A model generated the notes under the pieces. The model was not told where the DNA came from. It did not search any database and worked only from the letters and a program-made list of their open reading frames with translations. From contig NZ_FWFT01000001.1 of NCBI RefSeq assembly GCF_900172275.1, positions 186,001 to 250,000 of the forward strand: a stretch of 64,000 nucleotides of DNA, in the 5' to 3' direction. Positions 17,180 through 59,732 of the stretch are shown here, one piece after another (within the stretch, counting starts at the first letter, position 1; each line of letters starts with the position of its first letter). Both the position numbers and the translations under genes were made by a program. Source of the DNA: Pseudooctadecabacter jejudonensis (lineage in GTDB: Bacteria; Pseudomonadota; Alphaproteobacteria; Rhodobacterales; Rhodobacteraceae).

Positions 17180-20100
17180 ATGAAGATCGAACGTAATTTC
17201 ACAAAGTCCGGACAGGACGCCTACGCAGAGGTGGCGTTCAAATCCGCTACGTCTGAGATCCGCAATCCGGATGGGACGGTTGTCTTTAAGCTGGACGATT
17301 GTGAAATCCCGGACGCGTGGAGCCAGGTGGCCTCCGATGTGATTGCGCAGAAATATTTCCGCAAGGCGGGCGTTCCGTCTGACACCGTAAAGGTCGAAGA
17401 GAAGGGCGTTCCTGAGTTCCTGTGGCGCTCGGCCCCGGCTGAGGGTGCCACCATGGGCGGTGAGACGTCGGCCAAGCAGGTGTTTGATCGTCTGGCCGGT
17501 GCATGGACGTACTGGGGCTGGAAAGGTGGTTATTTCACCACCGAAGAGGACGCCCGCACCTATTTTGACGAAATGCGCTACATGTTGGCGACCCAGCGGG
17601 CGGCCCCGAACAGCCCGCAGTGGTTCAACACCGGCTTGCATTGGGCTTACGGCATCGATGGGCCTGCACAGGGCCACCACTACGTGGACTACAAAACCAA
17701 GAAACTGACGAAATCGACGTCATCTTATGAACACCCCCAGCCACACGCCTGTTTCATCCAGTCCGTGGCCGATGATCTGGTGAACGACGGCGGCATCATG
17801 GATCTGTGGGTCCGTGAGGCGCGCCTGTTCAAATACGGCTCCGGCACCGGCACCAACTTTTCCTCCCTTCGCGGTGAGGGCGAGGCGCTGTCCGGTGGTG
17901 GCAAATCCTCCGGCTTGATGGGGTTCCTGAAAATCGGTGACCGTGCAGCTGGTGCGATCAAATCCGGCGGCACAACCCGCCGCGCGGCCAAGATGGTGAT
18001 CGTTGACGCCGACCACCCCGATATCGAAGAGTTCATTAACTGGAAGGTGCTGGAAGAGCAGAAAGTGGCGTCCATCGTCGCGGGCTCCAAAATGCACGAA
18101 GCCAAGCTCAACGACATCTTTGCCGCCATTCGCGGCTGGGACGGGGCCGAGGCAGACGCCTATGACCCCAAAAAGAACGAGCAGCTGAAAACAGCCATCC
18201 GTGACGCCAAAAAGGTCATGATCCCAGAGACATACGTCAAACGTGTGCTGGATTATGCAAAGCAGGGTCACACATCGATCGAATTCCCGACCTATGATAC
18301 GGATTGGGATAGCGAGGCCTATAACTCGGTGTCCGGCCAGAACTCCAACAACTCGATCCGCGTCACCGACGCCTTCCTGAAGGCCGTCGAAGACGATGCC
18401 AACTGGAAGCTGATCAACCGTAAGAACGGTGAGGTCGCTAAGGTGATCAAAGCGCGTGAGCTGTGGGAAAAGGTCGGCCACGCCGCTTGGGCCTGTGCTG
18501 ATCCAGGCATCCAGTATCACGACACGGTCAACGCCTGGCACACATGCCCCGCCGATGGTGAGATCCGTGGATCGAACCCGTGTTCCGAATACATGTTCCT
18601 TGATGACACGGCTTGTAATCTGGCGTCCATGAACCTGCTGACCTTCTACAAAGACGGCACGTTCCAGGTCGAGGACTACATGCATGCGTCCCGTTTGTGG
18701 ACCGTCACGTTGGAAATCTCTGTGATGATGGCGCAGTTCCCGTCCAAGGAAATTGCCCAGCGGTCCTATGATTTCCGCACGCTGGGTCTGGGTTATGCCA
18801 ACATCGGCGGCCTGCTGATGAATATGGGTCTGGGCTATGACAGCGATGAGGGCCGTGCCTTGGCCGGTGCGCTGACCGCCATCATGACCGGTGTCAGCTA
18901 CGCGACATCTGCCGAAATGGCCGGTGAGCTGGGGCCCTTCCCGGGCTACAAAAAGAACGCCGACAACATGCTGCGCGTCATCCGCAACCACCGCAACGCG
19001 GCCTATGGGGCGTCCGACGGGTACGAAGCCCTCGAGATTAAGCCTGTCGCCTTGGATCACGCCAATTGCCCCGACACCCGCCTTGTCGATCTGGCGATGT
19101 CTTGCTGGGACGAAGCGTTGAAGCTTGGCGAACAGCACGGCTACCGCAACGCACAGGCCACCGTGATTGCCCCAACAGGCACCATCGGTCTGGTCATGGA
19201 TTGCGACACAACCGGGATTGAGCCCGACTTCGCGCTGGTGAAGTTCAAGAAGCTGGCCGGTGGCGGTTATTTCAAGATCATCAACCAGTCGGTGCCTGCG
19301 GCCTTGGCGAAACTGGGCTATTCTTCCAGCCAGTCTGAGGAAATCGTGTCCTACGCCGTGGGCCACGGCACGCTGGGCAACGCACCGGGCATCAACCACA
19401 CGTCGCTGGTGGGTCACGGGTTTGGTCAGGCCGAGATCGACAAGATCGAAGCGGCCTTGCCATCGGCCTTCGACATCCGCTTCGTGTTCAACCAGTGGAC
19501 GCTGGGCGAAGAGTTCTGCAAAGACGTGCTGGGCATTCCGGCCGACAAGCTGAACGACCCGACGTTTGATCTGCTCAAGTCCCTTGGGTTCTCCAAGGCC
19601 GATGTGGATGCTGCCAATGATCACGTCTGCGGGACCATGACGCTGGAAGGTGCACCGCACCTGAAAGAAGAGCATTATGTCGTCTTCGACTGCGCCAACC
19701 CCTGCGGTAAGAAGGGCAAGCGGTTCCTGTCCGTGAACTCGCACATCGACATGATGGCTGCGGCACAGTCCTTCATCTCCGGCGCGATCTCAAAGACGAT
19801 CAACATGCCCAACGATGCGACCATCGAAGATTGCCAAAAGGCCTATGAACGCAGCTGGGCCATGGGGATCAAGGCCAACGCGCTTTACCGAGATGGGTCC
19901 AAGTTGTCCCAGCCCCTCGCGGCAGCGTTGATCGAGGATGATGACGAGGCCGCAGAGGTTCTCGAATCCGGCTCCACCATGGAGAAGGCACAGGTCATCG
20001 CCGAAAAGATCATCGAAAAGGTCGTCGTCAAAGAGGTCATCAAATCGCACCGCGAGAAGATGCCCGAACGCCGCAAGGGCTACACCCAAAAGGCCATCGT

Positions 20101-20854
20101 TGGTGGGCACAAGGTCTATCTGCGCACCGGGGAATATGAAGACGGCAATCTGGGTGAGATCTTCATCGACATGCACAAGGAAGGCGCTGGCTTCCGTGCG
20201 ATGATGAACAACTTTGCCATCGCCGTGTCCGTGGGCCTGCAGTACGGCGTGCCGCTGGAGGAGTTCGTAGACGCCTTCACCTTCACCAAGTTTGAACCGG
20301 CTGGCATGGTTCAGGGCAACGACAGCATCAAGAACGCAACGTCGATCCTTGACTATATCTTCCGCGAATTGGCTGTGTCCTATCTGGACCGCACCGATCT
20401 GGCCCATGTGAAGCCCGAAGGCGCGTCTTTCGATGATCTGGGTCGTGGTGAGGAAGAGGGCGTGTCCAACATCTCTGAGCCGTCTGAGACCGCGGCGACG
20501 AAGTCTCTCGAGGTGCTTAAGCAGATCAGCTCCACCGGCTACCTGCGTAAGCGCGTGCCAAACGAACTGGTTGTGTTGCAAGGCGGGGCAGGGGCTGTGG
20601 CCTTTACAGATGGGGACGCCGCAGTTGCGTTGGACACCATTGTGCCGGCGGTCAGTGCAGGCGGCGGCATGGCGCAAGCGACCGGCGGGGCCACGGCTGT
20701 GTCCTCCGGTACGGTCAGCATGTCGGCCCGCGACAAGGCCAAGATGCAAGGCTACGAAGGCGATCCATGCGGCGAGTGCGGCAACTACACGCTGGTGCGC
20801 AACGGCACCTGCATGAAGTGCAACACCTGCGGTGGCACGTCCGGCTGCAGCTGA
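17180..20854 (+). CDS. nrdJ: Vitamin B12-dependent (class II) ribonucleoside-diphosphate reductase
   Basis: 1224 aa, the long NrdJ form typical of Rhodobacterales. It reduces ribonucleotides with adenosylcobalamin. The finger-loop motif N466-P-C468-S-E470 holds the catalytic Cys; [23 protein letters not shown] and [17 protein letters not shown] are other family hallmarks. The C-terminus has Cys-rich [14 protein letters not shown] and [13 protein letters not shown], presumably metal-binding and redox. A large opposite-strand frame inside it is an artefact of codon bias. Confidence 0.97.
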
Positions 20855-20863
20855 TACGAGTTC

Positions 20864-20890
20864 CGAAGGCGGGCACTGCGCCCGCCTTCG
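20864..20890 (+). terminator. Stem-loop after nrdJ
   Basis: CGAAGGCGGGC / GCCCGCCTTCG with a 5-base loop, 10 bp after the nrdJ stop. There is no T-run; a second, canonical terminator follows at 20961. Confidence 0.6.
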
Positions 20891-20960
20891 TGAGAGCCCT
20901 CAGGCCGCAGGCAGAATACCGGGCGGTACACTAGAATGAGCCTGAGTGGCGAGACTTACA

Positions 20961-20992
20961 GGGGGGACTTCGGTCCCCCCTTTTTTCTTTTT
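20961..20992 (+). terminator. Rho-independent terminator of nrdJ
   Basis: GGGGGGAC-TTCG-GTCCCCCC, an 8-bp perfect stem with a UUCG tetraloop, followed at once by TTTTTTCTTTTT. The left inverted repeat of the transposon-like element starts within the last T of this tract (20992). Confidence 0.93.
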
Positions 20993-21016
20993 GTCAGAAG
21001 CCGTAATTTTGTCGGA
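20992..21016 (+). repeat. Left terminal inverted repeat (25 bp)
   Basis: Begins TGTCAGAAGCCGTAATTTTG. Pairs with the right repeat with mismatches only at positions 4, 8 and 19. It lies directly after the nrdJ terminator T-tract. An AATTTCAAAATT motif follows at 21016-21027 and recurs near the right end. Confidence 0.8.
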
Positions 21017-21165
21017 ATTTCAAAATTCCCTGAATATCGGATGCTGATCTTCAGGCTGAATGTTTGAGGGTGCTCAGGGAGAGGACGGCGTACAACTTAT
21101 AATAGGCATTCTTTGGAGTTCGTCGACGATGAGTAGGGCGGGATCGTTTCGTTTGGCTCCCGTGG

Positions 21166-22173
21166 ATGTTCGAAGTTGTGGAGTGTGAACCCGATCAGGA
21201 GGTCAATGACGGTGGCCAATTTGAAGAACATGTCGCGCGGCGGCTTGCTGGTGAACAGCCAGACGGTTGGGCTCGTCACTTTCCGATTGGCGCGTTAGGC
21301 GCAATTTGTGAGATGCTGGGCGTCTCATTGATATCTGGAAAGACCGCAACCCTTCGGTCTCTGTCAAAACTAGAGCTGGCAATTGCGACATCGGCGGGGT
21401 TTCGACTTATTAACGCAGATAAATCTGAAGTGGTCGCATACTTTGAAAACCTCAGATTGAGCCCGGGCAAACCGCAGGACCGCCCTCAAGCCCAGTACGG
21501 CCGGATATATGATTGGCGAAAACGCGGGGCAGGGTATGGCCCTGAATATGAGCCACTTCGGGAGGCTTTGCGCCAACACATATTGGGTAGCTGGCCACTT
21601 GGGGCTGGTGAACAGGCACTCGACCACGTTTTGACCGAACGGCGGCTACATTCGATCAGGACCGCGGCAAAGACCCATGATCTTCATCCGAAACGTTTGC
21701 GGCGCCTTTTGGTCGATGCTGACATCATACCGGAGACGGATCGCCCTGATTTCGAGGTTATCTTTGATGCGAATGCAGCTAAGGAATTGCTCGAACAGGC
21801 AAGTGGTTCAGTTGCATTCTCTGCGGCCCAAAAGGGATTGGGGCTTACACGAGGACAAATGGAGACACTGACAAAAGCAGATCTGATCAAGCCTGGCGAG
21901 GGAGGAGACAGTGCTCGCCCAAGATTTACGGAGGCGACCATCGTGTCGTGGCTGGAGTTCTTGGGGTCCTTTCCTGAATCCGATAAATGGGCGTCGTTGA
22001 CCAGTATTTCTGACGCAGTTCGAAAGCACGGGGTGCCTACAGATCGGATCTTGAACCACATTTTGGAGGGTCGCTTGAAAAGAGTTTTCAGAGCCAAGGA
22101 GCAGAATGTCTTTTCTTCGATCCTAATCGACAAATATGAGGTTTATGTACTTCTTAAGGAGTTAAACGCTTAA
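21166..22173 (+). CDS. TniQ-like transposition protein, probably N-terminally truncated
   Basis: 335 aa. The segment ILGSWPLGAGEQALDHVL...RRLHSIRTAAKTHDLHPKR, with RLRRLLVDADII after it, resembles the helix-turn-helix C-terminal part of TniQ/TnsD-like targeting proteins. The typical N-terminal Zn-finger portion is absent; upstream frames hold stops between 21100 and 21160, suggesting loss of the 5' part. In Tn5053-like elements TniQ works with TniA and TniB in target selection. GC content is lower than in neighbouring genes. The family call is by pattern memory and needs a profile search. Confidence 0.55.
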   Translation: MFEVVECEPDQEVNDGGQFEEHVARRLAGEQPDGWARHFPIGALGAICEMLGVSLISGKTATLRSLSKLELAIATSAGFRLINADKSEVVAYFENLRLSPGKPQDRPQAQYGRIYDWRKRGAGYGPEYEPLREALRQHILGSWPLGAGEQALDHVLTERRLHSIRTAAKTHDLHPKRLRRLLVDADIIPETDRPDFEVIFDANAAKELLEQASGSVAFSAAQKGLGLTRGQMETLTKADLIKPGEGGDSARPRFTEATIVSWLEFLGSFPESDKWASLTSISDAVRKHGVPTDRILNHILEGRLKRVFRAKEQNVFSSILIDKYEVYVLLKELNA

Positions 22174-22819
22174 TTCCACACCGATGGCGCGATGTCCAAG
22201 AGTGTGGGGTGGAAGGTGGAAGTGTTGCCTTAAACCGATGGGCGGGAAGGAGACATTCGCTGCGGATGCAATGTGAAAGCTCCTTAGATCTGAAAGCGGA
22301 CATTGAAAGTACAAAGGCCCGAACTGATGGGGCCCCACACATTTTTGAACGGACCTGGTTCTAAACGCAGACGTCAGAGGTTCTTTTCCAGTTTGGCAAA
22401 TGACCCAGCCAGAGTTGGATCTGTCTGCAAAAGCAGTTGATAGTCGTGTCAGCGCAGGGGCCAGAAGGGTTTCCTGACCAAGGCTTCAATTGTACATCGC
22501 GCAGGGTCTTGAAGGCCGTTCAACTTAATACAAACCGCTCTCACTGTTGGGGCGAGTCTTGGTCCCGATTTCTTTCCGCGATTTTACTTCGATAGCCTTG
22601 AGGTGATCGGATCAAGCACAGGCGGGCTGGGACACTTCGGCGGCGATGGGCGCTGTTGTTCGAAGCCTTCGCCTGAGAGACGGCACTGGACGAGGGTGCA
22701 GGACTGTTCGCCCGGGAAAAAGGGCTGCTCTGTTACCCTGGGCATGCCGAATCTTTTAGTATCGGATGCCTCTGCAATGACACAATATTCCAAGTGCCAC
22801 TGTAGATGGACGCAAACGG
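22174..22819. other. Gene-poor stretch inside the element
   Basis: 646 bp between the TniQ-like gene and the LacI gene. Only short frames without recognisable domains are present. Segments such as GGAAGGAGACATTCGCTGC and AAAGCGGACATTG look like decayed intergenic filler. I see no RNA gene or intact coding region. Confidence 0.5.
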
Positions 22820-23860
22820 TCACTCTTCAGTTCCGGGCGCAAGCCGATCCCGGGCTGAAGCTGTCGGCCTTGCGGTTGTCGTCCGTTCGACCAGCTCGTT
22901 TTTCACGGTGATCTTGGCGTCTGGACGACGATACTCGTTTCGTCGGCTGACGGCCAATTCAATTGCCTTGGCAAATATCCCAAGCATGTTTTGTCGCACC
23001 GATGTCAGCTGATAGGACTGGAAGCGTCCGGTCTCGGTGTCGTCGTGGCCGACCACTTGGATATCGTCGGGTATGTTCAATCCGAAGTCCAGTCGCAGGA
23101 CATCCATTGCGCCAATCGCCATCGCATCATTGGCGGCAACAACGGCATCCAGGTTCGTGACGCTTGCCCCCAAAGCGCGGATCGCGGACTGGCCGCCATT
23201 ATAGGTGAAGGCGTCCTCAAGCACGATTGGCTCTGGCAGGCCCTTTGCCGTGCAGGCCTCGACAAATCCACGGCACCGCTCTGCCGAGACCCAATTGTTG
23301 CCGCCACCGCCCAGGAACACGCAGTGCCTGGCCCCCGATGCATGCAGCATGTCCACGACGTCATGCATGATCGCGTCATTGGGTGAGCACACCGCATCAA
23401 CCCCCGCACATTCGGATTGCCGGTTTATCATCACAAGAGGGACGCCCGCATCGGTGCAATGCACTGCGGCCTCGCGGGAAATGCTGGCCGCGCACAGGAT
23501 CATATCCACGCGTTTTTCCAACAGTTGGCGGATGGCCGCGTCGCCCATATCCGTCGGATCAACGATCTGGATGAGGAGGGCATCGCCGGTCTCGGACATC
23601 AGGTCGACGGCGCTTTTCAAGGCCAGCGGATAGTTCTGCTGCGCGTATTGCGTGACCACCAGACCCGCCAGACGGCTGCGCCCAAGACTGAGGGATTTGG
23701 CAATCGGGTTCGGGACAAACCCCAATTCGTGGGCGGCAGCCAGAACCCTCTCACGGGTCGTTTTCGACGCACTTCCATTGGGGGAAAACACGCGGGACAC
23801 AGCGGATTGGCTGACCCCGGCCAGTCTGGCCACGTCATAGGATGTTGCGCGCTTGTCCAA
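22820..23860 (-). CDS. LacI-family transcriptional regulator
   Basis: 346 aa from a TTG at 23860. The N-terminal HTH is textbook (TSYDVARLAGVSQSAVSRVF), with a hinge (RERVLAAAHELGFVPNPIAKSL) and a periplasmic-binding-protein-like effector domain ending in VVAANDAMAIGAMDVLR and VVGHDDTETGRFQSYQLTSV. The frame is open upstream into the divergent sulfatase gene; no ATG fits, and the TTG has a purine-rich AAAAGGCACGGA before it. It probably controls the divergent sulfatase-transporter operon through the palindrome at 23929. Confidence 0.88.
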   Translation of the reverse strand: MDKRATSYDVARLAGVSQSAVSRVFSPNGSASKTTRERVLAAAHELGFVPNPIAKSLSLGRSRLAGLVVTQYAQQNYPLALKSAVDLMSETGDALLIQIVDPTDMGDAAIRQLLEKRVDMILCAASISREAAVHCTDAGVPLVMINRQSECAGVDAVCSPNDAIMHDVVDMLHASGARHCVFLGGGGNNWVSAERCRGFVEACTAKGLPEPIVLEDAFTYNGGQSAIRALGASVTNLDAVVAANDAMAIGAMDVLRLDFGLNIPDDIQVVGHDDTETGRFQSYQLTSVRQNMLGIFAKAIELAVSRRNEYRRPDAKITVKNELVERTTTARPTASARDRLAPGTEE

Positions 23861-23900
23861 GATATTCCGTGCCTTTTGGTGACAATCCGACTCAAAGTTA

Positions 23901-23944
23901 TTGACAGAATACCGCAATCCGTCCAGCCTTGCATGCGGATGCAA
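23901..23944 (+). promoter_or_regulatory. Promoter element and palindromic LacI-type operator before the sulfatase gene
   Basis: A TTGACA box lies at 23901-23906. TTGCATGCGGATGCAA (23929-23944) is a perfect 6-4-6 inverted repeat between it and the sulfatase start. Its place in the 105-bp divergent gap next to the LacI gene makes it the best operator candidate. The -10 box is not clear. Confidence 0.55.
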
Positions 23945-23965
23945 AGCTTGAGAGGGGAGGCTCGG

Positions 23966-25501
23966 GTGGGACGCAAGATCCTTTTCATCACCACGGATGA
24001 GCAGCGTTTTGACGCGCTTGGCTGCTATGGTGGAAAGGTGGCGAAAACGCCCGTTGCCGACGGATTGGCGCGCGACGGCATCCGCTATGACCGCGCCTAT
24101 AATCAGAACGTGACCTGCATGCCCGCGCGATCGTCCATCGTGACGGGGCAATATGTGTCGACCCACGGGGTTCTGCGCAACGGCTACGCCTTGCCGGAAA
24201 ATGACCCTTCAATCGCGCGCTACCTGAACGAGCAGGCGGGCTATCGCACAGCGATTGTCGGCAAGGCCCATTGGCAGCCGATGACCGATCACACCTGTTG
24301 GGAGGCGTCGGCCGCAGGGCGCGGCGATCATGGGCCGCACCGCGGGTTCGAGTATCTGTCGCTGGCCGCTCATAGCGGCATCTCTTACCGGTGCGAGCTG
24401 CACTATAACCGGTGGCTGAAAGAGAATTATCCCGAGCACGTGGACTCGTTCTATCCGCCCGTGGGCCCCGAAAACGGGCCCAACAATCAGACAGGGGGCG
24501 AGAGCGACGCGATTCAAGTCCATCACAATGCTTGCCCGAAGAAGGCCTATCACACCGATTGGGTGGCTGAGACGTCGATCAATTGGCTTGATACCCTGGA
24601 CAAGGATGAGGATTGGTTTTTGTGGGTCAGTTTCCCCGACCCGCACCACCCGTTCGACCCGCCCGTGTCCGAGAAAGATCGCATCGACTGGCGCGATCTG
24701 GATCTGCCGGACGCGCACCCGGAGACCGACGAAAAGATCCGCGAGATCCTGGCCCAGAAGCCAAAGCACTGGCTGGAATTCTACGACGGCATCACCGACA
24801 TCGCCGACGAGACGCCCGATCAGTTCGTCCCCAAGACCATGACCCACGACAACGTGCGTGAGATCAACGCCATGGTCCACATCCAGAATGAGCTGGTGGA
24901 CGATGCCATGGGCCGCCTGATGGCCTATCTGAAGGCGCGCGGTTGGGACGAAGATACCGACATCATCTATTGCTCGGACCACGGCACCAATCAGGGCGAC
25001 TTTGGCCTGATGTTCAAAGGGCCGTTCCACACCGATGGGCTGATGCGGCTGCCGTTCATCTGGCGGCCTGCGCCCTCGGCCAGTGTGGCGGGCGGCACGG
25101 TCATCGCGGACCCTGTGGGTCACATTGATCTGGCCCCGACCTTTGCCCAGATCGCGGGGCTTCCGGTGCCCGATTGGGTCGAAGGCAAACCGCTGCCCAC
25201 CGAGGCAGACCCCGAACGGGACTGCGTGTTCTGCGAATGGGATGCGGAACGTCACGGCATCCAGATCAAGATGCGCAGCATTTATGACCGGTCGGGGTAT
25301 CTCTGCACGGCCTATGACCCGACGAATTATTATGACGGAACCGAGGGCGAGCTTTACGATCTGAAATCCGACCCACGGCAATGGTCCAACCTGTGGGACG
25401 CACCAGATCACGCCGACACCAAGGCCGCCCTTGTGGCCAAGATCAACCAACACACACCCGCGCCGCGCGAGCCAGCCCTGGTCCGCATGGCGCGCACCTG
25501 A
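23966..25501 (+). CDS. Type I (formylglycine) sulfatase, cytoplasmic
   Basis: 511 aa. The sulfatase signature C51-M-P-A-R55 followed by SSIVTGQY is the CxPxR type, in which Cys becomes formylglycine. Metal and active-site segments ILFITTDEQRFDALGCYG (N-terminal Asp pair), VGKAHWQP, FPDPHHPFDPP and YCSDHGTNQGDFGLMFKG fit the alkaline phosphatase/sulfatase superfamily. The GTG at 23966 is chosen because GGGGAGG lies 4 bp before it. There is no signal peptide, so it should act in the cytoplasm on an imported sulfate ester; the substrate is unknown. First gene of the sulfatase-tctCBA-FGE operon. Confidence 0.92.
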   Translation: MGRKILFITTDEQRFDALGCYGGKVAKTPVADGLARDGIRYDRAYNQNVTCMPARSSIVTGQYVSTHGVLRNGYALPENDPSIARYLNEQAGYRTAIVGKAHWQPMTDHTCWEASAAGRGDHGPHRGFEYLSLAAHSGISYRCELHYNRWLKENYPEHVDSFYPPVGPENGPNNQTGGESDAIQVHHNACPKKAYHTDWVAETSINWLDTLDKDEDWFLWVSFPDPHHPFDPPVSEKDRIDWRDLDLPDAHPETDEKIREILAQKPKHWLEFYDGITDIADETPDQFVPKTMTHDNVREINAMVHIQNELVDDAMGRLMAYLKARGWDEDTDIIYCSDHGTNQGDFGLMFKGPFHTDGLMRLPFIWRPAPSASVAGGTVIADPVGHIDLAPTFAQIAGLPVPDWVEGKPLPTEADPERDCVFCEWDAERHGIQIKMRSIYDRSGYLCTAYDPTNYYDGTEGELYDLKSDPRQWSNLWDAPDHADTKAALVAKINQHTPAPREPALVRMART

Positions 25502-25542
25502 GAGCGACGAAGACCAAAACACGACAACCGGGAGGAAATAAC

Positions 25543-26478
25543 ATGAAACTAAGAACCACACTTGCCAGTGTTGCAGCCCTGACGCTGAGCACGGGCGCGG
25601 CACTTGCCGAATATCCTGAACGCACCATCAACATGGTTATCCCTTTCAGCGCGGGTGGCGGCACGGACGTCCCCGGGCGCTTCTTTGCGGCAGAGATGGA
25701 AAAGCTGCTTGGCCAGAATATCGTCGCCACCAACGTGGAAGGCGCGGGCGGCACCATCGGTGCAACCCAGCAGGCGGATGCGCCGGCGGATGGGTACAAC
25801 CTGCTCTTTGCGCCTGTCGGCACGATGACAACCCAGCCGCATCTGCGCAACACCAGCTACAACGTGGACAGCTGGACGCCGATCTGCATGGTCAGCGAAG
25901 GCCCCTATTATCTGGTGGTCGGTGCCGATAGCGGGATTGAGTCGGTGGAAGATTACAAGGCGATCACGGCCAATGGCGGGCCACGGTTCGTGGGCGCGGG
26001 CCCGGGGTCCATGGATCACGTCGCACAGCTGACGCTGGACAGTGAATTGGGGATTGAACAGCAGTATCTGCCGACAGGCGGCGGGGCGGACAAGGCCACC
26101 GAGATTGGTGGCGGTCGCGCTGACGCGTCGGTCTGGTTTGCCGATTTCGACACCCGCTTCAACTTCAACGCATTGGCGATCATGGCCGATGAACGCTCCG
26201 ATCAGCACCCTGACATCCCGACCATGCAGGAATTGGGATATGACGTGAACGTGTCGATCTGGTTCGGCCTGTTTGCCCAGGACGACGCCCCCGCCGAGGC
26301 CGTTGAAACGCTGTCTGCCGCCTGTGAAACCGCCGTCAGCACGGACAGCTTCAAGGAAAACATGGCCGGCGCGAACCGCCTGATCCGCTACATGGGGACG
26401 GACGAGTTCGGTGACTTTTTCCGGAGGACCTTTGAGTTGAACGGAGAGTTGATGCGCAAGGCAGGCCTTGTGAACTGA
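25543..26478 (+). CDS. Tripartite tricarboxylate transporter solute-binding protein (TctC type)
   Basis: 311 aa with a signal peptide (LRTTLASVAALTLSTGAALA). The BUG/TctC fold is seen in YPERTINMVIPFSAGGGTDV, GAGGTIGATQQADAPADGYN and GGADKATEIGGGRADASVWF. It would capture the substrate in the periplasm for TctBA. GGGAGGA lies 7 bp before the ATG. The position between a sulfatase and TctBA suggests an organosulfate ligand, by inference only. Confidence 0.92.
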   Translation: MKLRTTLASVAALTLSTGAALAEYPERTINMVIPFSAGGGTDVPGRFFAAEMEKLLGQNIVATNVEGAGGTIGATQQADAPADGYNLLFAPVGTMTTQPHLRNTSYNVDSWTPICMVSEGPYYLVVGADSGIESVEDYKAITANGGPRFVGAGPGSMDHVAQLTLDSELGIEQQYLPTGGGADKATEIGGGRADASVWFADFDTRFNFNALAIMADERSDQHPDIPTMQELGYDVNVSIWFGLFAQDDAPAEAVETLSAACETAVSTDSFKENMAGANRLIRYMGTDEFGDFFRRTFELNGELMRKAGLVN

Positions 26479-26532
26479 TCTGACTGTACCCGCCGGGGTG
26501 ATCCCGGCGGGCAATCCAAAGGCTGAGTTTCA

Positions 26533-26991
26533 ATGCAGAAGACGCTTGATATTGTTCTGGCCAGCGCGTTTCTGCTGGCGGGTCTTGGTCTGTTGTCCAT
26601 GACATTCGGAGAGGCGTTCGACATCCGCACCTTCGGCGGCGATGTGGGCCCCGCCTTTGCCCCGCGTCTGTTTCTGGCGGCCTGGTCTGTCTTCGCGGCT
26701 GTCGCCTTGATGTCGGCCCTCAGGTCCACGCCGGGCGATATGGACAGAATCAACATGACGCAGTTTCTGACCGTTATCGTCATTGCGACCGTCACCGCGC
26801 TGGCCATGACGCGGATCGGGTTCGTCTTTGCCGCCGTGCCGGGACTGGCCGCGTTCTGCTGGGCCTTCGGGTATCGAAGGATCGGCGTGCTGGCGATCAT
26901 CAGCGTCACCGTCCCTGTCAGCATCTGGGCGCTCTTCACTTTCGGGTTTGAGCTGTTATTGCCCCGCTCCCCATGGTTCTATCAGATCTGA
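26533..26991 (+). CDS. Tripartite tricarboxylate transporter small membrane subunit (TctB type)
   Basis: 152 aa with four predicted hydrophobic segments (e.g. IVLASAFLLAGLGLLSM, LTVIVIATVTALAM). The motif FGGDVGPAFAPRLFLAAW matches the conserved N-terminal GP-xxFP-like region of TctB. It lies between TctC and TctA, 3 bp before tctA. Confidence 0.88.
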   Translation: MQKTLDIVLASAFLLAGLGLLSMTFGEAFDIRTFGGDVGPAFAPRLFLAAWSVFAAVALMSALRSTPGDMDRINMTQFLTVIVIATVTALAMTRIGFVFAAVPGLAAFCWAFGYRRIGVLAIISVTVPVSIWALFTFGFELLLPRSPWFYQI

Positions 26992-26994
26992 TTC

Positions 26995-28467
26995 ATGGAA
27001 AACCTCAGCCTCGCCATTTCCCAATTCTCAACCTTCGGCGTCCTTGTGGCTTTGGTCATCGGGTGCCTGTGGGGCCTGCTGGCGGGCGCGCTGCCCGGGA
27101 TGGGCACGGTGGCCGCCCTGATCGTGGCCTTGCCCTTTACCTTCGGCATGAGCACCGAAAGCTCAATCGCGCTGTTTCTTGGGATCTATGTCACCTCCGT
27201 CTATGGCGGCTCTATCTCGGCTATTCTGATCAACACGCCCGGCACGCCGCAATCGGCGGCGACGGTGCTGGACGGCTATCCCATGGCGCGGGCAGGGCAG
27301 GCGGATCTGGCCATTGGCTGGGCCACGTTGGCATCCTTCATCGGGGGCGTCTTTTCCCTGATCGTGCTGATCGTCGCCGCCCCCCTTCTGGCGGCGGTGT
27401 CGATCTCCTTCGGGCCCGCCGCGATCTTTGCCATCATCGTCTTCGCGCTGACCTGTATTGCCTGGGTGTCCGAGGGCAGCACAATCAAGGGGCTTCTGGG
27501 CGCCTCAGTAGGCCTGTGGCTGACCACCATCGGCCCCGACGATTTGACGGGCCTCACTCGGTTTGATTTCGGACAGCAGGAGCTGCGCGGCGGCCTGTCC
27601 CTGATCCCCGTCCTGATCGGCTTGTTTGCACTGAGCGAAGTCTTCTACCGCGCGGCCTTCTATTTCACGTCAAAGCCATCGGATGTGCAAAACGTGGGCT
27701 TCAAATTGCCCCCCTGGGCGGACATTCGGATCCGCGCGCCGCAGTTCCTGCGCTCCTCCATCATCGGCACCTTTGTCGGCATCCTCCCCGGCACCGGGGC
27801 GACGGCAGCCACCTTTGTCAGCTATTCGGAGGCGCGCCGCACCTCGCCCCGGGCCGAGAATTTTGGCAAGGGCGAGCCCGATGGATTGATCGCGTCCGAG
27901 GCGTCCAACAACGCCGTCACCGGGGGCGCGCTGATCCCGACGCTGGCACTTGGCATTCCCGGCGACGGGGGCACTGTTGTGCTGCTGGGTGTGTTGACGA
28001 TCCAGGGGCTGACGCCCGGCTATGATCTGGTCAACAACAACCCCCACATCCTGACCGGCGCGTTTTTGATGCTGATGGTGGCGAATATCGTCATGTTCGC
28101 CCTTGGTGCATTCAGCGGCCGGATTTTCTCACGCATCCTTGGCATGCCGGAGCCGATCCTTATGGGGCTGATCCTCATGTTTTCACTGGTTGGTGCCTTT
28201 GTCGTCCGCGGCAATCCGGTGGATGTCACCGTCTGTGTTGTGGCGGGTGTGGCGGGCGTGATCCTGCGCTTCGGACGTTATCCCATTGCGCCGATTGTCA
28301 TTGGCATGGCCCTTGGCACGACCTTCGAGACAAAGCTGCGTCAGGGCATGATCAGCGCGCGCGGCGATTTCGTGACCTTTTTGCAGGATCCCATTGCCCT
28401 TGGCATTCTGGGCCTGACCGCTCTGGTCGTGCTGGTCCCGACGTTGAAGCGGCGCAAGGCGCGTTAA
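26995..28467 (+). CDS. Tripartite tricarboxylate transporter large membrane subunit (TctA type)
   Basis: 490 aa polytopic inner-membrane protein. TctA hallmarks: GCLWGLLAGALPGMGTVAAL, YVTSVYGGSISAILINTPGT, GIVGILPGTGATAATFVSY-like segment FVGILPGTGATAATF, and ASNNAVTGGALIPTLALGIPG. It forms the translocation channel with TctB. The next gene (FGE) begins 10 bp after its stop. Confidence 0.95.
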   Translation: MENLSLAISQFSTFGVLVALVIGCLWGLLAGALPGMGTVAALIVALPFTFGMSTESSIALFLGIYVTSVYGGSISAILINTPGTPQSAATVLDGYPMARAGQADLAIGWATLASFIGGVFSLIVLIVAAPLLAAVSISFGPAAIFAIIVFALTCIAWVSEGSTIKGLLGASVGLWLTTIGPDDLTGLTRFDFGQQELRGGLSLIPVLIGLFALSEVFYRAAFYFTSKPSDVQNVGFKLPPWADIRIRAPQFLRSSIIGTFVGILPGTGATAATFVSYSEARRTSPRAENFGKGEPDGLIASEASNNAVTGGALIPTLALGIPGDGGTVVLLGVLTIQGLTPGYDLVNNNPHILTGAFLMLMVANIVMFALGAFSGRIFSRILGMPEPILMGLILMFSLVGAFVVRGNPVDVTVCVVAGVAGVILRFGRYPIAPIVIGMALGTTFETKLRQGMISARGDFVTFLQDPIALGILGLTALVVLVPTLKRRKAR

Positions 28468-28477
28468 AGGGCGACGC

Positions 28478-29395
28478 GTGACCAAAGCCTGTTGCACCCC
28501 CACGACGGACGGTTCTGACGGCGCGCCCTTTGTTGAGGCGATCCAAAAGATCATCCCCGCCGACGCCGGCCAACAGTCCGAGCTGAGGGCAGCGCTGATC
28601 AATATCCCCGGCGGGTTCTTCGACATGGGCGCACGGAAATCGCGCTTTCCGAAGGACCGCGACAGCCCGCGCAGGCGGGTCAAGGTCGCGCCATTCCGCA
28701 TCGCCCCATACGCGGTCACGAACCGGGACTACGGGCGGTTCGTCATGGCAACGGGGTATCGCACGGTGGCAGAGGTTGAGGGATGGTCCTTCGTCTTTCA
28801 ACTTTTTCTGCAAAGCCCCGAGCAGTTTCAATCGCCGCCCGGATTGCCGTGGTGGCGCAAAGTTGATGGGTCGTTCTGGGCGGCACCCGAAGGGCCCGCT
28901 AGTCACGTGGATGACCGGCCCGACCATCCGGTCGTCCATATCAGTTGGTATGATGCGCAGGCCTATTGCCGTTGGTCGGGCCTGCGTCTGCCGTCCGAGG
29001 CAGAGTGGGAACGCGCCGCGCGTGGCGGCATCGCACGGGCGAAGTTTCCCTGGGGCAACAGCTTCATGCCCGGTGGCGCGCACGCGATGAACACCTGGCA
29101 GGGGCATTTCCCGCATGAGAACACGGGCGAAGATGGCCACATCGGCACAGCACCCGTGGACGCGTTTTCCGCGAACGGGTTCGGGTTGCACAACATGACG
29201 GGCAATGTGTGGGAATGGGCGGCGGATTTGTTCGACGACACATCCGCATTGGGTGCGCGTGTGCAGCGCGGTGGATCGTTCTTGTGCCATGACAGCTATT
29301 GCGACCGATACCACGTCCATTCGCGCACCGGCACCGAACCGGACAGCTCAGCCGGTCATTCGGGGTTTCGCGTTGCCGCAGATGTCGAAGCGTGA
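28478..29395 (+). CDS. Formylglycine-generating enzyme (SUMF1 family)
   Basis: 305 aa. It converts the sulfatase signature Cys to formylglycine. FGE features: INIPGGFFDMGA, VTNRDYGRFV, HPVVHISWYDAQAYCRWSG, RLPSEAEWERAARGG, MTGNVWEWAADLF and RGGSFLCHDSYCDRY with the C270/C275 pair at the spacing of the copper-binding active-site Cys. GTG start. It is encoded in the same operon as the CMPAR sulfatase, which makes the module self-sufficient. Confidence 0.93.
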   Translation: MTKACCTPTTDGSDGAPFVEAIQKIIPADAGQQSELRAALINIPGGFFDMGARKSRFPKDRDSPRRRVKVAPFRIAPYAVTNRDYGRFVMATGYRTVAEVEGWSFVFQLFLQSPEQFQSPPGLPWWRKVDGSFWAAPEGPASHVDDRPDHPVVHISWYDAQAYCRWSGLRLPSEAEWERAARGGIARAKFPWGNSFMPGGAHAMNTWQGHFPHENTGEDGHIGTAPVDAFSANGFGLHNMTGNVWEWAADLFDDTSALGARVQRGGSFLCHDSYCDRYHVHSRTGTEPDSSAGHSGFRVAADVEA

Positions 29396-29417
29396 TCCGG
29401 CAAACGGGGCAGGTTTA

Positions 29418-30398
29418 ATGAAACACGCTATAGACAGTGGGGGCCTTGAACCGCCAGTGTCCCCAAGTATGACCTCAAGAATCCGGCTTAAACATCTTCA
29501 GGCGTTTCGCGCGATCGTGAATGCGGGGTCGATTACGGCGGCGACCCGTATGGTCAACCTGTCCCAACCTGCGATCAGCCGGTTGCTGGCTGTTTTGGAG
29601 GAAGAACTTGGGTTCAAGCTTTTCTACCGTCGGGGACGCCGCCTTGTTGCGACCGTCGAAGGGCAATCGTTCTTTCGGCGCATCGAGGGAACGCTGAGCG
29701 GCATTGACGACATCCCCTCGATCGCGGCGGATGTTCGGGTCAACAGCTACGGGCGGTTGCGCATTTGCAGCATCGGCCCCCTGCTTTTGGGGGATTATCT
29801 GCCGAAAGCAACGGCGCGCTTTCAAGGAGATTTTCCGGACGCCAAAGTCACGATGGAATGGCGACGGCGCGAAGACATCGACGAATGGGTGTCAAGCCGT
29901 CAGGCCGACATTGGCTTCACGCTTTTGCCAATCGAAAGCAATTCCGTGACCTGGCGCAAGCTGATCACAGTGCGTGCTGTGGCGATCTTTCCCAAGGGCC
30001 AGTGTTTTGACGGGCGCGAGACCGTACATGCGTCCGAGCTACGGGATGAGACGACAGTTCTGCCGAAACAAAACGTGCGCCTCAGGCAGTATAGCGACGC
30101 CGCCATGTTCGGGGATCAAGGGGATATGCGCGTTGATATCGAAACCTCGACCGCCGTGACCTCCTGCCATCTGGTGGCCAACAATGTCGGTGTCGGCATC
30201 AGCGATCCGTTCAGTGTTTCCGGTCTGGGCCGCGACCGGTTGGGGATCGCGCGCCTTGAGCCGGAGCTGACCCTGACCTATTGCGCGATTTGGCCCAAAG
30301 ATCGGGAGCCCTCACAGCAAGCCATGGATTTTTTGGATGCGGTCGCACAGGTCGGTGGCGAATTTTTTGAAGCCTTTCCAGAGGCTTGCCCTGTGTGA
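29418..30398 (+). CDS. LysR-family transcriptional regulator
   Basis: 326 aa from the ATG at 29418 (GGGGCAGG just upstream); the ATG at 29469 before TSRIRLKHLQAF is an alternative. The HTH is LKHLQAFRAIVNAGSITAATRMVNLSQPAISR, followed by LEEELGFKLFYRRGRR. The effector domain follows (GRLRICSIGPLLLG, SCHLVANNVGVGISDPF). It follows the FGE gene and precedes a broken tctC, whose regulation it may once have served. Confidence 0.88.
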   Translation: MKHAIDSGGLEPPVSPSMTSRIRLKHLQAFRAIVNAGSITAATRMVNLSQPAISRLLAVLEEELGFKLFYRRGRRLVATVEGQSFFRRIEGTLSGIDDIPSIAADVRVNSYGRLRICSIGPLLLGDYLPKATARFQGDFPDAKVTMEWRRREDIDEWVSSRQADIGFTLLPIESNSVTWRKLITVRAVAIFPKGQCFDGRETVHASELRDETTVLPKQNVRLRQYSDAAMFGDQGDMRVDIETSTAVTSCHLVANNVGVGISDPFSVSGLGRDRLGIARLEPELTLTYCAIWPKDREPSQQAMDFLDAVAQVGGEFFEAFPEACPV

Positions 30399-30464
30399 TC
30401 CTCTGAGACCAGGCGCGGGAGGACGCGCATGTGCCAACATCTCGGGCACACAAGAGAGGAAAAA

Positions 30465-30744
30465 ATGCTGAAAAAAACAACAACTGTTACGGCGGCTCTG
30501 TTGGCCGTTCTGGTCACGCCTGCACTGGCGGAATGGCCCGAGCGGCACATCAACATCACCGTACCGTGGCAGGCCGGGGCTGGCGCCGTCGACCAGATGA
30601 CGCGTCAGTTGCAGGCCACCGTGGCCGAGGGTGACTTGTCGTCCCAACCGATCACCGTCTTCAACGTCGGTTGTCCGATTCCGATCGGTTTGCGGCAAGG
30701 GCTGTAGACAGAGGCCGATGGCTACAAGGGCGGAGTCTCAGCTT
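30465..30744 (+). pseudogene. TctC-type solute-binding protein, truncated
   Basis: A good RBS (AGAGAGGA) and an intact signal peptide (LLAVLVTPALA), then WPERHINITVPWQAGAGAVDQMTRQL as in TctC. The frame meets TAG at 30705 inside IGLRQGL*TEADGYKGG, where TctC homologs read through a DGY motif. After about 30744 homology stops and TniB-like sequence begins in another frame. So this is a nonsense-mutated and truncated second TctC. Confidence 0.75.
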
Positions 30745-31293
30745 CGTCGTGACAGCTATCTGGTCATCAATATCGATGAGGCACAGCACTTATTTGCGGA
30801 CAAAACAGCGAACGAGATCCAAGTGATTTTGAACGGTCTAAAAGATCTCATGAAACGGCCGGGTTGGCCGGTGCTGCCTATTTACTCCGGCTTACCGGAG
30901 CTCTTGGATTATGCGAACGAAAATGAGCAGCTGACGAGCCTGATCGAACCGATCACCTATGATGATATCGCCTAAAATGAGATCAGCCTGAACGAGGTTG
31001 ATTCAATTCCGGTTACATTCTCGGAAGTCGTTGGATTAGACCCAACCGGAGTGCGCAATTCAGATGCCTTCAATCGGTTGATCCATGCTTCTAATGGTCG
31101 ATGGGGCAGATTGATCGAGCTGATCATTCACGCATTGGCTGAAATCTATGTCGAACATCCGGATTGAAAGGAGATTCTCACCAGCGAACTTGCTCTGATT
31201 TTTCAACGATGGACCGGAGTGTCGGATGCGGCAAATGTCTTCTAAGGTGATAACCCATATCGGATTTCAGTGGGCGTACTCTACCGTCAATAG
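30736..31293 (+). pseudogene. TniB-like AAA ATPase fragment with nonsense mutations
   Basis: One continuous frame interrupted by TAA (30973), TGA (31165) and TAA (31243), ending at TAG (31291). It begins within SYLVINIDEAQHLFADKTANEI, a Walker B region as in TniB/TnsC transposition ATPases. Then come PVLPIYSGLPELLDYAN, DDIA*NEISLNEVDSIPVTF, SNGRWGRLIELIIHALAEI and LALIFQRWTGVSDAANVF. The N-terminal Walker A half is gone; the break abuts the TctC remnant. AT content is higher than in the cargo. Confidence 0.7.
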
Positions 31294-31473
31294 CCAACGA
31301 CCGATCTTAAATAAACCAATGACCCCGTAGCTGTTTCAGTTGCGGAGTTTTTATTTTATCTTATTGAAAACATGGGTAATTTTGAAATTGAGGCCGTAAA
31401 TATTGAAATTTCAAAATTGAGAGCATTTAAGTTGCTGAAAAAATACACTTATTCACCGAGGCCTGAAGCGTCC
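31294..31473. other. AT-rich subterminal region of the element
   Basis: It contains AATTTTGAAATT (31378-31389) and its inverse AATTTCAAAATT (31407-31418), the latter also found beside the left end (21016-21027). Repeated subterminal motifs are expected as transposase (TniA/TnsB) binding sites. No credible gene. Confidence 0.5.
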
Positions 31474-31498
31474 TCCGACGAAATTACGGCATCTAACA
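31474..31498 (-). repeat. Right terminal inverted repeat (25 bp)
   Basis: Read inward on the minus strand it begins TGTTAGATGCCGTAATTTCG, 22/25 identical to the left repeat. The sequence after it (CCCAAAGTGGG...) does not duplicate the five bases before the left end. Confidence 0.8.
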
Positions 31499-58472: not shown

Positions 58473-58676
58473 GGGTCTTGTCCTTTGATTGTTTGTCTAT
58501 GAATGCTGTAAGGTAAACCTGACGCAAGGCTACTTCAAGGCGCAAATGCAGTTCGCACGACGGCAATTTCAGGGGAATGGTGCCCCCCGCTTCCCGCTTT
58601 TCATTGCCAGGACCGCATGTCATATAGCCGTCCAAGGTCCAGTTTGGGGGCCATGTTTGTTTGAAGGACAATGATC

Positions 58677-59732
58677 ATGAGAGGGACGATCTCAATTCTC
58701 GTCATCGCAGTGCTGGGCTTTTTTGGCTACCAGTGGGGCGTAAACGGTAAAGCACCGGCTGAAGTTTTTGCAGGCGCAACTGAGGCTGCATCCGACGCCG
58801 CAGAGGGCGCTGTTGAGGCCGCATCGGACGCCGCTGAGGGCGCCGCAGACATGGCGTCTGATGCCGCGGATGCTGTGACTGAAACAGCAGGTGACGCAGT
58901 GGACGCCGCCGGTGAGATGGCCTCTGACGCGGCGGATGCCGTTGAAGGCGCTGTGGAAGGTGCTGTTGAGGCCGCAGAAGGCGCAGCGGATGCTGTTGCA
59001 GACGCAGCCGAAGGCGCTGTGGATGCCGCAGGTGAGGCGCTTGAGGGGGCCGCCGATGCGGTCGAGGGGGCTGTTGAAGACGTCTCTGACGCGGTTGAGG
59101 GTGCTGTCGAAGGCGCAACCGACGAAGCCGCAGAAGCCGCCGCTGCCGCTGAGGAAGAGGCCGCTGCTGCTGCCGCCGCTGCTGAGGAAGAGGCTGCTGC
59201 CGCCGCGGCTGCCGCTGAAGAAGAGGCAGCTGCCGCTGCCGCCGCTGCTGAAGAAGCCGCCGCCGCCGAGGCCGCTGCTGCCGAAGAAGAGGCTGCCGCC
59301 GCCGCCGAAGCTGCCGCCGCCGAAGCTGCCGCCGCTGCCGCCGTCGAAGACGCCACAGCCGCCACTGAAGACACCGCAGCCGCCCTTGAGGATGCCGCCG
59401 CTGCAGAAGCAGCCGACGCTGTCGCCGAGGGGGCCGAAACAGTGTCTGAGGCCGCTGATGTCGCCACGGAACTGGCAACAGAAGCCGTGGAAGCTGGTGA
59501 GGCCGCACAGGAGGCAATCAGCGATGTGGCCGAGGCTGCCGATGGCATGGATCTCAGCACTCTTTTGACAACCGACGGCTTCGATTTTGACGCTGTGGCA
59601 CAGTTGATCGAAAACTCCTCGCTGGACGATCAGACCAAAGCCGTGTCCCGCGCAGCCCTGATCGGCGCGCAGCGCAATCCCGATCTTCTGGAAGGGACAT
59701 TGCAGCGTCTGGGCGAACGCCTGGGTCAGTAA
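58677..59732 (+). CDS. Membrane-anchored Ala/Glu-rich repeat protein
   Basis: 351 aa from the ATG at 58677 (GAAGGA 8 bp upstream; an ATG at 58671 is too close). One N-terminal membrane segment (ISILVIAVLGFFGYQWGV), then ~250 residues of Ala-rich helix: first AADAVEGAV-like repeats, then EEE-A8 units of exactly 11 residues, then Ala/Glu/Asp-rich sequence. A compact C-terminal domain ends the protein (LTTDGFDFDAVAQLIENSSL, LIGAQRNPDLLEGTLQRLG). Not recognised; possibly a periplasmic spacer or LEA-like protein. Its antisense frames are long only because of codon bias. Confidence 0.8.
   Translation: MRGTISILVIAVLGFFGYQWGVNGKAPAEVFAGATEAASDAAEGAVEAASDAAEGAADMASDAADAVTETAGDAVDAAGEMASDAADAVEGAVEGAVEAAEGAADAVADAAEGAVDAAGEALEGAADAVEGAVEDVSDAVEGAVEGATDEAAEAAAAAEEEAAAAAAAAEEEAAAAAAAAEEEAAAAAAAAEEAAAAEAAAAEEEAAAAAEAAAAEAAAAAAVEDATAATEDTAAALEDAAAAEAADAVAEGAETVSEAADVATELATEAVEAGEAAQEAISDVAEAADGMDLSTLLTTDGFDFDAVAQLIENSSLDDQTKAVSRAALIGAQRNPDLLEGTLQRLGERLGQ

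Follow-up and report, generated by a model that had tools for sequence, protein, structure and literature searches.

The window analyzed in this study is a 64,000-nucleotide stretch of the Pseudooctadecabacter jejudonensis genome (contig NZ_FWFT01000001.1, positions 186,001 to 250,000; window positions below count from its first letter). It contains a B12-dependent ribonucleotide reductase gene that we take, by similarity, to be nrdJ, followed by a conserved structured RNA and then by a 10.5-kb interval that opens and closes with paired inverted repeats (IRs), holds remnants of the transposition genes tniQ and tnsC, and encloses a block of sulfatase and tripartite tricarboxylate transporter (TTT) genes (Table 1). 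The interval is probably a decayed, TnsA-bearing Tn7-like transposon that was targeted past nrdJ by a TnsD-type TniQ and that underwent a deletion, followed by replacement with the sulfatase/TTT genes. Relatives are designated below by genome (G) or locus (L) handles.

Ends and gene remnants of the element

A repeat comparison of the window revealed that the two 25-bp IRs, with TGT...ACA ends, are identical at 22 of 25 bases. No IR match with three or fewer mismatches occurred in 100 dinucleotide shuffles of the window, and no third copy was found in the whole genome (3.41 Mb) at the same tolerance. The motif AATTTCAAAATT is present exactly at 21016 (+), 31378 (-), and 31407 (+), with a one-mismatch copy at 31399, against an expectation of about 0.008 exact copies per 64 kb; with two mismatches allowed, 11 matches were obtained and 3.1 were expected. 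These subterminal motifs at both ends are putative TnsB sites, and TGT...ACA terminal repeats accompanied by subterminal repeats are a feature of Tn7-like elements. When 295 family genomes were scanned with the 25-bp end, G229 and G217 gave the matches outside the window's own genome (three mismatches each), and one control match appeared (G236); both were treated as chance, and the G229 match sits 140 kb from the nrdJ of that genome. The ends of G270 and G298, which differ from the left end of the window at 6 and 7 of 25 positions, were found via TniQ instead.

The open reading frame (ORF) 21166-22173 had no match to Pfam TniQ itself because the N-terminal part modelled by Pfam is missing from it. 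It matched 20 alphaproteobacterial plasmid records (best E 1e-29); 14 of the matches spanned 80% or more of the ORF, and 10 of the 20 records were annotated as TniQ. The one confirmed relative among 36 pattern matches to the window TniQ in genome contigs, L005, encodes a protein 61-62% identical to it with a Pfam TniQ match (1.2e-18) over the N-terminal part, although its contig stops 1.7 kb past the tniQ match; the TniQ of G270 also matched Pfam TniQ (7.1e-6). Alignment of the window protein to those of L005 and G395 starts at about codon 157, and the TniQ domain typical of Tn7-like elements is accordingly seen in the relatives, with the window copy aligning outside that domain. A PDB search with the TniQ N-terminus matched no TniQ or TnsD chain. 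At the right end, Pfam TniB scored below its cut-off (E 0.0086), but the TnsC of Paracoccus ferrooxidans pFER4 aligned to 30739-31164 (E 1.7e-15) and that of G171 to 30766-31143 (E 7.8e-26), the fragment being 38% identical to G171 and 42% to pFER4 (77 residues). This remnant of a TnsC/TniB AAA ATPase, a further Tn7-like component, is broken by an in-frame TAA at 30973. A DNA search of the fragment against plasmids returned no match, and no similarity to tnsA or tnsB above noise was detected within the window. The window element is now unable to move by itself.

An earlier, sequence-only reading of the interval had described the 22/25 IRs, the subterminal motifs at both sides, a TniQ-like gene at the left end, and a TniB-like ATPase fragment by the right end, and had proposed that tniA and most of tniB were lost. 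The ends and motifs were confirmed by the repeat comparison, the shuffles, the genome scan, and the three exact and one near-exact copies of AATTTCAAAATT. The two genes were recognized through homologues, the right one as a C-terminal part of TnsC/TniB, and the losses agree with the absence of tniA/tnsB and the partial tnsC. Profile hidden Markov models supported the gene assignments less well, with no Pfam TniQ match and TniB under its cut-off, and it was homology to TniQ and TnsC proteins that upheld them. The core of that reading thus holds, namely that the interval is a remnant of the TniQ/TniB class, within the Tn7 superfamily, and that its ends are real.

The class of the element was indicated by its relatives. 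In G395, nrdJ is followed by an IR, a 174-bp spacer, the RNA, a tniQ broken after about 200 codons, tnsA, and a short reading of 78 residues that is called tnsB by position alone, the pFER4 TnsB query having no match there. The G395 TnsA reached 24.4 bits with Pfam TnsA-like_N (4.5e-5; cut-off 26.5) and 0.0016 with NCBIfam TnsA-like, far below that model's cut-off, and it aligned (4.9e-26) with the presumed TnsA of pFER4, a protein that itself had no Pfam match. The order tniQ-tnsA-tnsB-tnsC was found in three more distant loci (G171, G309, and G127), tniQ follows tnsC in L062, L063, and L065, and in pFER4 tniQ is divergent from tnsABC. The tnsB genes of the related loci G067, G262, and G309 matched Mu-transpos_C and rve, and that of G067 matched solved TnsB chains (2.3e-6); around the G171 element, no convincing inverted repeats were found. 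Tn5053/Tn402 elements have the order tniA-tniB-tniQ-tniR and TGT ends of about 25 bp. The family described here resembles them in its ends and in its TniQ and TniB homologues, but in G395 tnsA, which separates Tn7-like from Tn5053-type elements, comes after tniQ, and the tniA-tniB-tniQ order without TnsA is not what is found. The arrangement IR-tniQ-tnsA is therefore Tn7-like rather than Tn5053-like, and a tniQ-tnsABC plan accounts for the leftover order of the window, tniQ left and tnsC right, so that this order is not a rearrangement. The Tn5053-type label and the rearranged architecture suggested by the sequence-only reading were consequently abandoned. In G309, a tRNA-Ala gene is located about 3.4 kb past tniQ of the tniQ-tnsA-tnsB-tnsC locus (L103 9842-19194), and a relative of the element may occupy a tRNA site there.

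The nrdJ-downstream site and its RNA

The site downstream of nrdJ was compared in 37 loci plus G395 and G396, the 37 being hand-picked, chiefly among the highest-ranking entries in an nrdJ list that covered 278 genomes, and not a random sample. A like left end was found past nrdJ in five genomes, with stop-to-IR distances of 137 bp in the window, 88 bp in L005, 37 bp in G298, 27 bp in G270, and 1 bp in G395; in L005, just as in the window, TniQ comes after nrdJ and has the same IR ahead of it. TniQ was detected at E <= 1e-15 in 32 of 394 family genomes, and the three closest (the window's own, G298, and G270; E <= 6.5e-30) are all beside nrdJ, as is the tniQ of G395, a genus-mate of G298. No nrdJ was present in 24 further TniQ loci (3.2-3.8 kb each) or in the 20-kb stretches L062, L063, L065, and L066. 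The window genome, G270, and G298/G395 belong to different genera. In the nrdJ tree (23 rows, G395 and G396 left out), the four element hosts are scattered and four label changes are needed, at least two of them forced by starred branches, and none of 200 bootstrap trees needs one change only. The same left end past nrdJ in scattered hosts points to site-specific insertion beside a conserved gene, which on this comparative evidence adds a trait of many Tn7-like elements, and we conclude that insertion has apparently been repeated at one site, four separate events not being forced.

Short ORFs with a metalloprotease-like HEIAHFF/HEIGHYF motif (by eye) are situated between nrdJ and the RNA in G141 and G005 (L032 after 156; L080 after 257), and other small ORFs lie past nrdJ and before the RNA in G106 and G171; the nrdJ-RNA interval therefore seems to gain genes.

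The RNA, about 120 nt long, consists of a hairpin, a GCCGCAGGC...GGGCGGT core, and a terminator-like hairpin, and the window copy shares 84% identity with the native one of the genus-mate G145. Among 34 loci free of the element, a pattern search located it in 28, at most 800 bp from the end of nrdJ. The covariance model R1, built from 29 sequences including that of the window, added two copies missed by the pattern (G005 and G246); in G010 the RNA is 112 kb away from nrdJ, and in G100, G247, and G097 it was found by neither pattern nor model. A genome search with the covariance model, which scored 150 candidates per genome in 20 hand-chosen genomes, recovered the RNA in 16, with one strong copy each, including those of the window, L005, G270, and G298; G240 gave two additional weak matches. 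Covariation supports this structure: in alignment A1, comprising 29 native RNAs (28 relatives and the window), 96.2% of cells were paired and 12 of 22 pairs had changed on both sides, with 0 of 500 shuffles as high and slid controls far below, the structure being taken from the same alignment. Rfam 15 scans gave no above-threshold match to the RNA; an mmgR/suhB match over its terminator was discounted as weak (22.7 bits against a gathering threshold of 41; E 0.44). No RNA beside nrdJ was described among the matches listed, and the main texts of the Ruegeria and Paracoccus small-RNA papers (PMC4809877 and PMC5107571), taken without their supplements, are silent on one. In the same Rfam scans, another relative (L025 2207-2306, minus strand) matched PYLIS_3, the pyrrolysine insertion sequence of mttB, at 40.6 bits (gathering 38).

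This RNA lies ahead of the left IR in the window, but between the IR and tniQ in L005, G270, G298, and G395. The element-internal RNA is the sole copy found in the L005, G270, and G298 genomes; for G395 and G396, the search covered the fetched stretches. Between G298 and G395, the nrdJ 3' end is 80% identical, the spacer 95%, the RNA 100%, and tniQ 97%; between G298 and G270, the corresponding values are 76%, 81%, 95%, and 89%. Native RNAs in A1 reach at most 83.5% identity over 406 pairs, a figure obtained with a different alignment method. Since spacer, RNA, and tniQ are more alike than nrdJ and native RNAs stay at or below that value, the RNA travels with the element in G298, G395, and G270, and IR, spacer, RNA, and tniQ have, judged by these identities, clearly moved as a unit in three of the four. 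In G396, the nrdJ end shares 94% identity with that of G298 over 573 aligned nt (90% in gapped blastn) and the RNA 76%; the first and last parts of a decayed tniQ come immediately after this RNA, and no IR can be recognized. Such a pattern is what recombination between host and element RNA copies would leave if the insertion, like that in the window, was downstream of the host RNA. In G270, G298, and G395, about 15 nt separate the end of the T run past the RNA terminator hairpin from the start of tniQ (by eye), and attenuation of tniQ by the preceding RNA is a possible further role.

The sulfatase/TTT block and its flanks

The metabolic block stands where tnsA, tnsB, and the 5' half of tnsC belong, and its last gene is a truncated tctC, whose junction with the transposon remnant is near 30670-30740. 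Its G+C content (0.56-0.65) equals that of the outer flanks, and tniQ (0.49-0.54) and the right end (0.43) lie below it. A search with the sulfatase, against plasmids only, gave 34% identity in the best row. We read the block as a probable later replacement rather than classic cargo.

Table 1. Features of the element and its surroundings, in window coordinates
Feature	Position	Strand	Remarks
nrdJ, B12-dependent ribonucleotide reductase	17180..20854	+	Host gene; insertion site on 3' side
Host copy of conserved structured RNA, with terminator-like hairpin	20863..20988	+	Directly before left IR; model R1 85.6 bits
Left terminal inverted repeat	20992..21016	+	TGT end; 137 bp past nrdJ stop
Left subterminal AATTTCAAAATT	21016..21027	+	Common to L005 left end; putative TnsB site
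tniQ remnant	21154..22173	+	C-terminal two thirds (onward from about codon 157); lacks the 5' region and the N-terminal TniQ domain
LacI-type regulator	22820..23850 (start approximate)	-	Pfam LacI, Peripla_BP_3
Sulfatase	24008..25501 (start approximate)	+	Pfam Sulfatase 1.5e-30
Tripartite tricarboxylate transporter, tctC-tctB-tctA	25546..28467	+	Pfam TctC, TctB, TctA
Formylglycine-generating-enzyme-like sulfatase-modifying factor	28478..29395	+	Pfam FGE-sulfatase 3.7e-73
LysR-type regulator	29496..30398 (start approximate)	+	Pfam HTH_1, LysR_substrate
Second, truncated tctC-like gene	30465..30707	+	N-terminally resembles first tctC (repeat of 74% over 35 nt, and also by eye); no Pfam match of its own
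tnsC/tniB remnant	30739..31164	+	About residues 136-277 of 326; TAA stop at 30973-30975
Right subterminal cluster, three AATTTCAAAATT-like motifs	31378..31418		Putative TnsB sites
Right terminal inverted repeat	31474..31498	-	Paired with left repeat

At the place downstream of nrdJ, G145 has neither the sulfatase/TTT genes nor sodC. Its own post-nrdJ block (FAD oxidoreductase, enolase, and others) is found at 541-549 kb on the same contig of the window genome (G000:C5:541594-549411; L015), and one genome or the other has been rearranged. This block is about 330 kb off and inverted in the window genome, with one end near the element. The right flank, not being shared with G145, may not be the original one, which bears on the missing target-site duplication. 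The proposal of the sequence-only reading that the interval moved as one element was not demonstrated, given the lack of a target duplication, the block in the place of tnsA, tnsB, and 5' tnsC, the truncated tctC, and a right flank that differs from that of G145. Elsewhere in the window, 58671-59732 is a 353-residue ORF that is very rich in alanine and glutamate and repetitive past a signal-anchor-like start (by eye).

Origin of the interval and its kinship

The decayed Tn7-like transposon would have had the ancestral plan IR, RNA copy, tniQ, tnsA, tnsB, tnsC, IR, in which tnsB and the right half are supplied from related loci. Its TniQ, long at about 490 codons when the L005 N-terminus is joined to the window C-terminus, is most likely a TnsD-type selector; a TniQ of more than 400 residues is taken as a sign of direct target selection in PMC10293859. 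The selector would recognize the 3' part of nrdJ, the following RNA gene, or both, and direct insertion just downstream. In the window genome, the element appears to have inserted right after the host RNA terminator, whereupon an internal deletion would have fused the left end to mid-tniQ and taken out the element's RNA copy; in a second event, the sulfatase/TTT block would have displaced tnsA and tnsB together with the 5' half of tnsC. The pattern in L005, G270, G298, and G395 suggests that the host RNA was lost and the element copy kept, and G396 may have kept a host-like or hybrid RNA. If the host copy was lost, the variation in distance from the nrdJ stop to the IR would be accounted for as well.

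Two matching ends that enclose the block would fit a 10.5-kb transposon that moved as one unit with the sulfatase/TTT genes as ordinary cargo, which Tn7-like elements commonly carry (PMC8649781). This is unlikely, however, as the block is flanked by tniQ and the 3' half of tnsC, a place taken by tnsA in G395, the tctC at the junction is truncated, the ends lack a target duplication, and the G+C of the block contrasts with the 0.43-0.54 of tniQ and the right end. A single old insertion next to nrdJ that was passed on by vertical descent and disappeared from most lineages would accord with the decay of every copy, with an L005 element that has diverged as much as its nrdJ or more, and with a tree in which starred branches force only two label changes. 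We consider it improbable, because G298, G395, and G270 resemble one another much more closely in spacer, RNA, and tniQ than in nrdJ, a single change suffices in 0% of the bootstrap trees, the nrdJ ends of G298 and G396 agree at 94% but their RNAs at only 76%, and the element is placed differently with respect to the host RNA, past it in the window and with no host copy ahead of the IR in the other genomes.

Somewhat less credible still is the idea that the RNA is the host copy everywhere, tniQ a resident gene, and the upstream IR unrelated. The single strong RNA copy per genome and the G396 remnant, in which nrdJ, RNA, and tniQ follow each other without a recognizable IR, speak for it; the window order RNA-IR-tniQ contradicts it, as do the 100% RNA and 95% spacer identity of G298 and G395 beside 80% for nrdJ, given the ceiling on native RNAs. 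That the RNA serves as a guide, in an RNA-based target selector with TniQ in place of protein recognition, seems very improbable: the RNA adjoins tniQ in L005, G270, G298, G395, and G396, and CRISPR-associated transposons (CASTs) carry guides against their own attachment sites (PMC11406308), yet a long TnsD-type TniQ would require no guide to recognize its site. CRISPR-Cas genes were not noticed among the ORFs read, no dedicated search for arrays or effectors having been made.

Several observations weigh against a decayed Tn7-like transposon with repeated insertion at nrdJ. The 5-bp target-site duplication of a simple Tn7-like insertion is absent between the present flanks (CTTTT left, CCCAA right), and with a right flank that lacks synteny with G145, the one genus-mate compared, the empty site could not be reconstructed. 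Neither a right end outside the window nor an intact family member was found. The window element has no RNA copy, so that loss has to be assumed there, and L005 bears no sign of recent joint transfer, its identities to G298, G395, and G270 being 65-66% for the spacer, 79-80% for the RNA, 62-66% for tniQ, and 73-78% for nrdJ. Only two of the four label changes are forced in the nrdJ tree. The stop-to-IR distance takes five values (1, 27, 37, 88, and 137 bp), and TnsD-directed insertion usually occurs at a fixed distance from the gene. Support for TnsA is modest, with G395 under the Pfam cut-off and matches of the pFER4, G067, and G309 proteins absent or at chance level. The genomes are few, five with the IR and six counting G396, and mostly draft contigs.

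Among known systems, Tn7 itself (TnsABC with TnsD at glmS) is similar in TnsA, TnsC, a TniQ-domain selector, and insertion by the 3' end of a conserved gene (PMC11406308 and PMC2918618), but the family described here uses nrdJ rather than glmS, has tniQ at the left end before tnsA, carries a copy of a host structured RNA in its left end, and varies in its distance to the gene. Tn5053 targets plasmid resolution sites (PMC11406308). The tnsABC/tniQ locus of pFER4 and the G171, G309, and G127 loci have the same protein set, with tniQ before tnsABC in the latter three; they differ in having no nrdJ in their stretches (by annotation for pFER4, by tblastn for the others) and, for pFER4, in the divergent tniQ, and TniQ identity is 28% both between pFER4 and the window and between G171 and L005. 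The I-F3 CASTs at ffs, the signal recognition particle RNA gene, and tRNA-targeting Tn7-like elements likewise use a site that coincides with a small structured RNA gene or borders one (PMC11406308), whereas the present family carries a full copy of the RNA.

The attachment sites named in PMC11406308 include glmS, yhiN, comM, parE, tRNA genes, guaC, yciA, ffs, and rsmJ, along with the plasmid resolution sites of Tn5053, and the words nrd and ribonucleotide occur 0 times in the main texts of PMC10293859 and PMC8649781. The open literature, taken without subscription papers and bioRxiv, yielded no report of an nrdJ attachment site, and among the matches listed no Tn7-like element was tied to nrdJ, ribonucleotide reductase, Rhodobacterales/Rhodobacteraceae, or a duplicated attachment-site RNA; nrdJ would therefore be an attachment site not named in the searchable Tn7 papers. 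We tentatively propose, as a serious possibility, that the nrdJ-RNA locus of Rhodobacteraceae is an attachment site, that the element's own RNA copy can swap with that of the host, and that the RNA may gate expression of the selector. A transposon end would here carry, move, and apparently substitute a host structured RNA, which opens to testing both the role of this RNA and whether Tn7-like selectors read an RNA gene as their landing site.

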